Shown here: one piece after another, positions 31,427-34,618 of the stretch
How the letters are laid out: every line of letters starts with the position of its first letter
Numbering within the stretch: the stretch's first letter is position 1
From: Candidatus Altimarinota bacterium
GTDB lineage: Bacteria; Patescibacteriota; Gracilibacteria; BD1-5; UBA2023
Direction of reading: 5' to 3'
Assembly: GCA_028277205.1 (NCBI GenBank)
Contig: JANQGT010000014.1
Span: 1-48,612 of the forward strand
Length of the DNA stretch: 48,612 nt
Notes under the pieces: model-generated
What the model was told of the DNA's origin: nothing
Database searches by the model: none
Seen by the model: only the letters and a program-made list of their open reading frames with translations
Made by a program: the position numbers and the translations under genes

Positions 31427-32410
31427 ATGCTCCCGGAAATCCTCCCCTACCTCCTGCTCATCCTCGGCTTTTCGGCGGTCATAAAGGGCGCCGATCTTTT
31501 TGTGGAGGGTGCGAGCGACATCGCCAAACGCCTCGGGGTCTCCGAGCTCGTCATCGGTCTCACCATCGTCGCATTCGGGACGAGCGCCCCGGAGCTCGCG
31601 GTCAATGTCCTGGCGGCATTCGGAGGATCGACGGATCTCGCCATTGGAAATATCTTCGGGAGCAATTTTACCAATATCCTGCTCATCCTCGGTATCTCGG
31701 CGCTCATCGCCCCCCTCGTCGTCAATAAAAAAATCCTGCATATCGACATCCCATTCATGGTGCTCGTGATGGCGATGGCGGTCGTCCTGGCAAACGATAT
31801 GCTCCTCTCTCGTGCATCGGAGTCGACAATCGCCAATGGCGACGCGCTGGTGCTCTTGGGATTTCTCTGTGTGTTTTTCGTCTATATGCTGCGATCGGCA
31901 CAAAGTGAAAACGATACGGGCATGCAGGGAAAACCGCGATACTCCTCGACACTCGTGGCAACGAGAGTATTTCTGGTGGGACTCGCGGGACTCGTCCTGG
32001 GTGGAAACTGGGTCGTCTCCGGCGCCACCACCATCGCGAAAACTTTCGGACTCTCCGATACCTTTATCGGGCTCACGATCGTCGCGATCGGGACGTCCAT
32101 CTCGGAGCTCGTGGCATCCGCAGTGGCGGCGATGCGCTGAAAGGCGGATATCGCCATCGGAAACGTCGTCGGGTCAAATATCCTCAATACCGTCTTTGTC
32201 CTGCCGCTGACGGCACTCACGGCGAGTGCTCCCATTGCATTTGACATGAGCTCAAATATCGATGCACTGGTCATGATATCGGCGGGTATCCTGCTCGGGA
32301 TCAGCCTCATCATCGGACAAAAACGCGTCATCGATCGCTGGGCTGGTGTGATCTTTGTCTGTCTGTATTTCGCGTATATGGGTGTGCTCATCTATCGAAA
32401 TGTTGGGTAG
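31427..32410 (+). CDS. Ca2+/cation antiporter (CaCA, YrbG-like)
   Basis: 327 residues, ten predicted membrane segments in two inverted halves. The alpha-1 and alpha-2 repeats that form the ion pathway are visible: GLTIVAFGTSAPELAVNVLA with IGNIFGSNFTNILLILG in the first half, and GLTIVAIGTSISELVASAVA with IAIGNVVGSNILNTVFVLPL in the second. These match the GTSAPE / G-S-N-N motifs of bacterial K+-independent Na+/Ca2+ exchangers. UGA 32138-32140 is Gly, just before the second GSN motif. Stop TAG. Likely exports Ca2+ using Na+ or H+. Confidence 0.92.
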
Positions 32411-32434: not shown

Positions 32435-32614
32435 ATGAAAACGACGAAATATCACAATTCGTATACAACGAAAGGCGTCTTTGGCTTCTCTATACTCCGC
32501 AGCAAATCCGGAAAAATCCTCTATCCGCCATCTGACATATACAGTATGACGAATAGCGTAAAGCAAGAAAAATTTGCATCGACACGAGAGCTCATTATAA
32601 TGTGCCTCGTGTAA
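32435..32614 (+). CDS. Possible small ORF overlapping the thrS promoter
   Basis: A 59-codon frame from ATG to TAA (MKTTKYHNSYTTKGVFGF ... ELIIMCLV), AT-rich, without UGA or family likeness. It overlaps the predicted thrS promoter. It is more likely chance than a gene, but it fills most of an otherwise empty 350-base gap. Confidence 0.2.
   Translation: MKTTKYHNSYTTKGVFGFSILRSKSGKILYPPSDIYSMTNSVKQEKFASTRELIIMCLV
32574..32601 (+). promoter_or_regulatory. Predicted promoter of the thrS leader transcript
   Basis: TTGCAT (32574-32579), a 16-base spacer and a perfect TATAAT (32596-32601). It lies 24 bases before the leader-peptide ATG. Confidence 0.6.
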
Positions 32615-32625
32615 TCTCACACCCC

Positions 32626-32685
32626 ATGGCAAAACTTCGCACAAACACCACGACCACACGCCCGGATACTCGGGAGGAGTCGTAG
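32626..32685 (+). CDS. thrS leader peptide (threonine-rich attenuator peptide)
   Basis: 19 codons, MAKLRTNTTTTRPDTREES, ATG 32626 to TAG 32683-32685. Six of the 19 residues are Thr, four of them consecutive (codons ACC ACG ACC ACA after ACA AAC); all four Thr codons are used. It lies between a promoter and a terminator hairpin upstream of threonyl-tRNA synthetase, the arrangement of ribosome-mediated attenuation (compare thrL and pheST leaders of enteric bacteria). If charged Thr-tRNA is scarce, a ribosome should stall in the Thr run and leave 32670-32676 free. Too short to show homology by itself. Confidence 0.75.
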   Translation: MAKLRTNTTTTRPDTREES

Positions 32686-32729
32686 TGTTTTTCTGGTTTT
32701 GTAAGAAGCAAACACCTCGCCGCTCCCGA
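32670..32729 (+). promoter_or_regulatory. Proposed antiterminator pairing in the thrS leader
   Basis: TCGGGAG (32670-32676, in the leader peptide's last codons) is exactly complementary to CTCCCGA (32723-32729, the 5' arm and loop of the terminator). The two structures exclude each other. Between them GTGTTTTTC (32685-32693) can pair with GAAGCAAACAC (32705-32715) as an inner hairpin. A ribosome that finishes the leader at UAG 32683 would cover 32670-32676 and let the terminator form. Confidence 0.6.
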
Positions 32730-32744
32730 AAGGAAGCGGTTTTT
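32720..32744 (+). terminator. thrS attenuator (intrinsic terminator)
   Basis: CCGCTCCC (32720-32727), GAAA tetraloop, GGAAGCGG (32732-32739), then TTTTTATTTTT. Seven of eight pairs form, with one C-A mismatch. It ends 20 bases before the thrS ATG, so it would stop transcription before the gene. Confidence 0.75.
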
Positions 32745-32764
32745 ATTTTTCACCTTTTTGCATT

Positions 32765-34618
32765 ATGCAGCAGATTTCTCTGGAGGCAAAGCGTCATTCG
32801 CTGTCTCATATCCTCGCTCAGGCGGTCGAGTCGCTCTATCCCGACGCGAAAAAAGCGATCGGTCCCGCAGTCGAAAACGGATTTTATTTCGATTTCGATT
32901 TCGGTGATTTTGATTTCAAAGAAGAGCATCTGAAGGATGTGGAAAAGAAAATGCGCCACATCCTCAAACAAAATCAGCGATTCGAGCGCTATGAAATGTC
33001 CGTGGACGAGGCGCACGAAAAGGCGCTGAATACCGAAAAAAATCCGTATAAAGTGGAGATCATAGACGATCTGGTCGCCTCGGAGCATGTCGAGACGGTA
33101 TCGTACTATCAAAATATACTCCCCTCCGGCGCAGCCGTCTACGAGGATCTCTGTCGCGGTCCGCATGTCGAGAGTACGAGCGAGCTCGACGCCGATGCCT
33201 TTCGGCTGGATCGCGTGGCGGGAGCGTACTGGCGCGGCGACGAGAGTCGTACAATGCTCACGCGGATTTACGGTATCGCATTCGAGAGTCGCGCAGATCT
33301 GGACGCGTACGAGAAAATGCGCGAAGAAGCCGCAAAGCGCGATCATCGGGTACTGGGAAAGAAGCTCGGACTCTTTACGATCGATCCGGATGTCGGTCTC
33401 GGTCTACCACTCTGGAAGCCAAAGTGAGCCATGATCGTCAATACTTTGAAGCGGTGGTTTGAAGATGTCCAGCTAGAGCGTGGATACATGCCCGTCCTCA
33501 CGCCGCATATCGGACGAAAAAGCCTCTGGGAGACTTCGGGACACTGGCAATTTTACAAAGATGGCATGTATCCTCCCATCGAGCTCGGCATGTCACTCGA
33601 AGACTATCAAGACAACCGAAAGCCGAGCGAGCATGAGACCTATCTGCTGAAACCGATGAACTGCCCGGGACACGTAAAAGTATTTACGGCGGATCCGCAC
33701 TCATATCGCGATCTCCCGGTGCGACTCTATGAGTTTGGCACTGTGTACCGATATGAGCAAAAATGAGAACTTTCCGGTCTCACGCGCGTGCGCGGATTTA
33801 CCCAGGACGATGCGCATATCATCTGTCGCAGCGATCAGATGCGCGAGGAATTTGCCAAGGTCGTCGATCTCGTCCATTTTGTTCTGCATGAAACTTTCGG
33901 ATTTGAAGTCAAAACCTATATCTCTCTGCGTGATCCGAAAAATACCGAAAAGTATCTTGGCTCAAACGAGCAATGGAATCAGGCGGAAGAGACAATACAA
34001 GAAATATTATCGGAAAAAGGATACACCTTCGCGGCGGATTTTGGAGGAGCAGTATTTTACGGTCCGAAAGCGGACTTCAAAGTGCGCGACTCCATCGGTC
34101 GCGAATGGCAGCTCTCGACTGTCCAGTTTGATTTCAATCTGCCGGAGCGATTTGATATGTCGTTTGTCAATGCGGCATGAGAAAACGAGCGTCCGTATAT
34201 GGTACACCGTGCGCTCTTTGGCTCGCTCGAGCGATTCATGGGCGTGATGATCGAGCACTTCGCCGGACATTTTCCCCTGTGGCTTTCGCCGGTGCAGGCT
34301 CGCATCGTACCGGTTTCCGCGAATTTCATAGAGTACGCACGAGAGGTCGAGCAGACGCTCCGAGATGCCGGACTGCGTGCGGAGACGGACGACTCTGACG
34401 ACGCTCTGGGTAAAAAAATCCGAAACGGCGAACAGGCGCACATCCCCTATCTGCTCGTGATCGGAGAGCGAGAGATGAGTGATCGCACTGTCGCACTGCG
34501 CGACGTACGCGCGAAGGGGCAGGCGGACATGTCCCTCGATGATGCGATATCAAAGCTCGGGGAAGAAGCTCGGGAGAGGAGACTCGGGAGTTTATTGTCG
34601 GCAGGAGCGAGGGGGTAA
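32765..34618 (+). CDS. thrS: Threonyl-tRNA synthetase, without TGS domain
   Basis: 617 residues. It starts almost directly in the N2 editing domain (AKRHSLSHILAQAVESLYPD with the HxxxH zinc/editing motif, and EDLCRGPHVEST with the later Cys and His); the usual N-terminal TGS domain is missing. The class II core has motif 2 (TVYRYEQKGELSGLTRVRGF), FTQDDAHIIC, MNCPGHV with the catalytic-zinc Cys, and motif 3-like HRALFGSLERFMGVMIEHF. The C-terminal anticodon-binding domain follows (PVQARIVPVSANFIEYAREV). Three UGAs (codons 221, 334, 472) are Gly; codon 334 is the near-invariant Gly before ELSGL. Expression is probably controlled by the attenuator upstream. Stop TAA. Confidence 0.97.

Follow-up and report, generated by a model that had tools for sequence, protein, structure and literature searches.

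A Thr-Rich Leader Conserved Upstream of thrS in an Order of Gracilibacteria: a Probable Ribosome-Mediated Attenuator

The thrS Locus and Its Leader Region

The window, which is the whole stretch of 48,612 nucleotides analysed here, belongs to a draft genome of 1.06 Mb in 52 contigs, from an uncultured bacterium of the Gracilibacteria type. The gene thrS, coding for threonyl-tRNA synthetase (ThrRS), is located on the forward strand at positions 32765-34618 and matches TIGR00418 with 659.6 bits (cut-off 383.65). All features described below are on the same strand. Upstream of the leader region an antiporter gene, also on this strand, ends at 32410. The interval from the antiporter gene to the leader contains a 59-codon open reading frame (32435-32614), which spans the candidate promoter described next and stops just past it.

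The promoter scan found a -35-like hexamer TTGCAT (32574-32579) and a -10 hexamer TATAAT (32596-32601) before the leader. By consensus match alone this pair agrees at 10 of 12 positions, and 0.8 +/- 0.9 promoter-like sites are expected by chance in the region. The transcription start would be expected near 32608. In most of the relatives, -10-like hexamers are found 30-40 nt 5' of the leader start.

The leader reading frame MAKLRTNTTTTRPDTREES (32626-32685) begins with ATG at 32626, consists of 19 codons and ends with the stop codon TAG at 32683-32685; homologous leaders are present in relatives. Six of the 19 codons, in positions 6, 8, 9, 10, 11 and 15, code for threonine. The leader start has no obvious Shine-Dalgarno sequence, and none was seen at any of the window gene starts inspected (28107, 30016, 31427, 32626 and 32765).

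The leader RNA folds better than all 200 of 200 dinucleotide shuffles (z -3.1). In the fold predicted for the window RNA free of ribosomes, four structures are present. The protector strand GCAAAACU (32629-32636), which is also the site of the RCAnnACTTG element of the relatives, forms an 8-bp helix with its partner GGUUUUGU (32695-32702). The 5' arm of the 1:2 stem (32643-32654) covers Thr codons and pairs with 32679-32690. A small hairpin, CCCGG-auac-UCGGG (32661-32674, with 32661-32665 paired to 32670-32674), sequesters the antiterminator strand. The last structure is an intrinsic terminator (32719-32750) with a stem of 32719-32727 and 32732-32740, one C.A mismatch, a GAAA loop and a U-run from 32740; terminators are found in relatives as well.

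The alternative structure is the antiterminator. Its 5' strand UCGGGAG (32670-32676) is a perfect 7-bp complement of the 3' strand CUCCCGA (32723-32729), which overlaps the 5' arm of the terminator, and an inner hairpin (32685-32715, with 32685-32694 paired to 32704-32715) is predicted between them. The antiterminator and the terminator are mutually exclusive, with the strand 32723-32727 common to both. Together with the protector helix, this makes up the full set of three mutually exclusive helices known from classical trp-type attenuators.

A previous sequence-only reading of this DNA had proposed the order promoter, leader, antiterminator, inner hairpin, terminator with U-run and thrS, and each element is found where it was placed, including the 19-codon leader with six Thr codons and the perfect antiterminator pairing. 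The protector helix, the 1:2 stem and the small hairpin had escaped it.

Conservation in the Order

ThrRS was used to locate thrS in the 77 genomes of the order, and the upstream DNA was then read. Five thrS loci at contig ends were left out of the assessable set. According to the sequence-only reading, relatives with thrS and without the Thr run and hairpins would speak against attenuation; a homologous leader followed by an intrinsic terminator was found upstream of 56 of the 65 assessable thrS genes. This number comprises 46 genomes that were aligned, the window included, and 10 from a second look, several of which have the leader farther from thrS with other genes between. The distance to thrS amounts to 1-4 kb in some genomes, with intervening genes. 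The leader was not detected at nine thrS genes (G002, G004, G005, G013, G014, G019, G023, G028 and G030), several of which were searched over a short upstream distance only.

The leaders range in length from 11 to 25 codons and have the consensus M-x(1-2)-(L/F)-[A/T/S]-[Q/L/K/R]-L-x-T-(T-rich), or in shortened form M-x(1-2)-(L)-A-Q-L-x-T-(Thr)n. An intrinsic terminator follows the leader in all 46 aligned sequences. The exact 23-base pattern of the leader start, RTGNNNNTNGCACNACTTGNNAC, has matches in 27 genomes, never more than one to a genome. Of these matches, 24 are upstream of thrS as located by the protein search, and the other three fall on contigs with thrS absent or truncated. As a control, the pattern was reversed and gave 0 matches. 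The same arrangement ahead of thrS across the order is thus far beyond chance, and its recurrence in most of the order indicates a real control element, apparently undescribed.

In two of the loci (L016 and L019), the interval between the terminator and thrS contains a short GC-rich stretch bearing the arms CCCCCT...AGGGGG. It looks like a dispersed palindromic repeat.

It is possible to imagine that the hairpin is simply the terminator of the upstream transcript, that the Thr-rich frame arose by chance and that thrS is transcribed from another promoter. Intergenic terminators are common, and the antiporter gene does end upstream on the same strand. However, the order as a whole shows conservation and covariation of leader, frame, terminator and antiterminator, and the distance from the U-run to thrS is only about 15 nt, which leaves no room for another promoter. 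This explanation is already contradicted by the comparative data and appears extremely improbable.

Reading Frame of the Threonine Run

In the 46 aligned leaders, ACN codons after codon 5 account for 183 of 537 in-frame triplets (34%), while the two other frames have 13 of 491 (2.6%) and 10 of 491 (2.0%). Each of the codons ACT, ACA, ACC and ACG is used. Codon 7 or 8 is the first Thr codon of 44 among the 46 leaders, and some leaders have 1-2 Thr codons only. As judged from this codon usage, the constraint in the Thr run is on threonine and not on nucleotides. The in-frame enrichment together with the free third positions argues that these codons are read by ribosomes.

This evidence bears on a second explanation, namely that ThrRS regulates its own synthesis by binding a leader RNA that resembles tRNA-Thr, the way E. 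coli thrS is controlled, with the leader frame being secondary. Self-regulation by E. coli ThrRS is known (noted in PMC2965389), and the leader RNA here is indeed structured. Against it stand the codons apparently read by ribosomes, the terminator after every aligned leader, and the nature of the conserved part, which is confined to a brief stretch where the leader begins and is not a tRNA-like fold. The anatomy does not suggest a translational operator of the E. coli type, in which ThrRS binds to tRNA-like domains at the start of thrS. We consider autoregulation of this kind to be very unlikely.

Covariation and Predicted Switching

The antiterminator pairing, between the region of the leader stop codon and the 5' arm of the terminator, was compared with pairings in which the partners were swapped between genera. 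The energy of the own pairing is -5.45 kcal/mol versus -3.66 +/- 0.33 kcal/mol for the swaps, and 0 of 2000 swaps were as good; the antiterminator thus covaries, a check on relatives that the sequence-only reading had suggested. The covariation of the protector pairing is weaker, with the own pairing better in 1991 of 2000 permutations and 9 of 2000 swaps as good. In the control, the stop-codon region paired with the 3' arm of the terminator, the mean was also above all swaps, and base composition within each genome could contribute part of the signal. The own pairing was better in 40 of 46 sequences for the antiterminator versus 26 of 46 for the control.

The folding model of different ribosome positions is an equilibrium model. 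Over the 46 leaders, the mean probability of the terminator is 0.77 with no ribosome and 1.00 with the ribosome at the stop codon, and it is about 0.39 (median 0.14) with the ribosome at the first conserved Thr codon. The corresponding value for controls with shuffled spacers is 0.99. With the ribosome stalled, the terminator probability is below 0.5 in 28 of 46 leaders and in none of the controls; with no ribosome it is below 0.5 in 11 of 46. In 17 of the 46 leaders the model gives no switch, whichever Thr codon holds the ribosome. The switching is stable when the leading edge of the ribosome is set at +10 to +16 nt and becomes weaker at +18.

For the window itself the terminator probability is 1.00 without a ribosome, 0.49, 0.34, 0.48, 0.20 and 0.01 with the ribosome at Thr6, Thr8, Thr9, Thr10 and Thr11, respectively, and again 1.00 once the ribosome has reached codon 15 or the stop. 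In stalls at Thr codons 6 to 11, the minimum-energy fold pairs 32670-32676 with 32723-32729 and the terminator is lost. Folding thus gives both of the alternatives that had been proposed, the antiterminator for the stalled ribosome and the terminator otherwise. The antiterminator is made first during transcription, so that co-transcriptional folding should favour it.

Proposed Mechanism

We propose that the element is a ribosome-mediated transcription attenuator which senses charged tRNA-Thr and controls thrS, and we assign to this reading a probability of about 0.93. The same interpretation had been offered from the sequence of the window, and it is supported by the conservation, by the covariation in the antiterminator and by the switching that the model predicts for different ribosome positions. 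The anatomy, conservation, reading-frame constraint and covariation are observed, and the switching is found in the model; the transcription start, the arrest of ribosomes at Thr codons, and the direction and extent to which charged tRNA-Thr would regulate thrS are inferred.

In this mechanism RNA polymerase would start near 32608 and a ribosome would translate the Thr-rich leader. When Thr-tRNA is plentiful, the ribosome would reach the stop codon at 32683 and cover 32670-32676; the terminator at 32719-32740 would then form and transcription would end ahead of thrS. When Thr-tRNA is short, the ribosome would stall at the early Thr codons and mask the protector strand 32629-32636. With the protector masked, 32670-32676 would be able to pair with 32723-32729, the terminator would not form, and thrS would be transcribed. 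If no ribosome is loaded, the protector helices would sequester the antiterminator, and termination would be the default outcome.

The Conserved Leader Start

The element RCAnnACTTG corresponds to leader codons 3-5 and to positions 32629-32638 of the window. It is conserved at the nucleotide level in the 46 relatives: for the first three codons of the motif, GCA, CAA/CTA and CTT, the third base is invariant in 46/46, 46/46 and 43/46 sequences, respectively. These fixed third positions indicate an RNA-level signal at the leader start. Part of this conservation is accounted for, on the pairing evidence, by the protector helix. Many relatives have the pairing GCACAAC/GUUGUGC, while the window has GCAAAAC/GUUUUGU, a compensatory change. 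The TTG of the element matches no helix found.

This might mean that the LAQLxT start of the leader is in addition a nascent-chain arrest or an RNA polymerase pause element, and that stalling within the attenuator is not caused by Thr codons alone. The conservation of RCAnnACTTG, with the TTG outside the explanation by the protector helix, would fit such a role, as would the leaders that have very few Thr codons. However, the fixed third positions favour a constraint at the level of RNA over one on the peptide, and SR1 and other families manage without the LAQLxT start. We regard this addition to the attenuator as rather unlikely.

A broader proposal is possible though doubtful, and we offer it tentatively. 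The sequence RCAnnACTTGnnAC might serve at once as coding sequence, as protector strand and as a pause or arrest signal that synchronises the ribosome and RNA polymerase. The whole would be an attenuator resembling an RNA family, ancestral to the order, in bacteria without Shine-Dalgarno sequences.

Gene Context and Distribution

In one genome of the order (G076, L305:489-4431) a gene cluster comes after the leader and terminator, running from thrC through a Nudix hydrolase gene, a kinase-like gene and an unknown gene to thrS. The thrC gene matches TIGR00260 with 186.9 bits (cut-off 167.1). The kinase-like gene is of the homoserine/shikimate kinase type; it is closest to homoserine kinase and below the cut-off of that family. 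Such a position for a Thr-rich leader, in front of clustered threonine genes, is expected if threonine is sensed. Of the 77 genomes of the order, 9 have a thrC match that exceeds the cut-off, and a leader ahead of thrC was found only in G076.

Other synthetase genes were sampled in seven genomes (members of PF00133, PF00587 and PF01409; 479 kb with both strands counted), and no leader with an amino-acid run and terminator was found at them. Within that set, which does not include all synthetases, threonine is therefore special. A candidate Leu leader seen in G043 (MKLLLLLLLLRRGNS...) was discarded, since it is located downstream of its own gene and the sequence that follows it reads as the opposite strand.

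Beyond the order, further families of the class also have Thr-rich leaders at thrS. They are present in SR1/Absconditabacteria (family f13), for example in L062 (CP006913, MMHLGTTTTTTTSQ), and in families f9, f8, f4 and f29; most of these leaders have terminators, and their starts are unrelated. The Thr leaders of unrelated sequence at thrS are those of L062, L090, L100, L111, L177, L193, L198, L211, L213, L214, L215 and L232. Several of the leaders from SR1 and the other families also switch in the folding model. No Thr-rich thrS leader was found in the remaining families of the class sampled, and no Thr leader with terminator at the thrS genes of Paceibacteria and other CPR bacteria among 80 loci fetched from named genomes. 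No viral contigs bearing thrS were found. Judging by their unrelated sequences, the Thr leaders may have been gained, replaced or rebuilt more than once in the class. The recurrence of unrelated Thr leaders raises the question of why threonine is singled out among the sampled synthetases.

Relation to Known Systems

Searches against Rfam gave no match for the whole window, for the leader (E 10) or for the loci of five relatives. Neither the T-box covariance model nor the Thr_leader model of the enteric thr operon was matched, even at E 10.

Ribosome-mediated attenuation is itself a known mechanism. One of the closest systems is the pheST attenuator (pheM) of enterics, in which a synthetase gene is controlled by a terminator/antiterminator switch and by a leader peptide with many residues of the cognate amino acid; these three features are common to both. 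The present element differs in its amino acid, threonine instead of phenylalanine, in having no sequence relation to pheM, and in belonging to another phylum. It also differs in its UGA=Gly code, its starts without Shine-Dalgarno sequences and a start element that doubles as protector strand. The enteric thrL attenuator likewise combines a leader peptide containing Thr codons with a terminator that follows it. However, its target is thrABC and it responds to Ile as well as Thr, and the thrS element has no Rfam match. In Firmicutes, the thrS T-box senses uncharged tRNA-Thr and releases thrS from a terminator, which is the same outcome, but it binds the tRNA directly and has no leader frame, while the element described here is based on a leader and matches no Rfam family.

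Attenuation of a single synthetase gene by a leader peptide has been predicted from comparative genomics before, for classical attenuators upstream of Streptomyces trpS and leuS (PMC1262725) and for His leaders of the hisS/hisZ paralogues in bacilli (PMC2965389). Those cases concern other amino acids and other phyla, and thrS is not among them in the parts of the two papers available.

Searches of the open literature gave no case of a leader-peptide attenuator for thrS or of any attenuator in Gracilibacteria or Absconditabacteria. The gene, the lineage and the conserved element thus appear undescribed, and the conserved start element may be a variant of the known mechanism. The element indicates that CPR bacteria, which are almost inaccessible to genetic study, couple transcription to translation closely enough for ribosome-mediated attenuation. 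Charged tRNA-Thr would be sensed in cells that mostly have no detectable threonine synthase. With thrC undetected in most of the order, threonine is probably imported or derived from a host.

The thrS Gene and Recoding

The thrS gene of the window has three in-frame TGA codons, and relatives have glycine at these positions in 23 of 24 comparisons, which fits genetic code 25 (UGA=Gly). The sequence-only reading was aware of no published thrS case in a UGA-recoded CPR lineage. The absence of a described case stands, as far as the open literature goes. The element is not confined to one genome, however, and it is not tied to recoding, since Thr leaders are also found in families of the class whose thrS has no in-frame TGA.

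Across the order thrS occurs in two forms. One was matched over its full length and the other strongly only from about residue 126; the latter has a longer, diverged N-terminal part. The leader is present with both forms. The ThrRS of L177 (G139:C10:10032-11786), from another family of the class, is 57% identical to that of the window, while most members of the window's own family show 43-53% identity. Horizontal transfer of the L177 gene, which has a different Thr leader, is possible.
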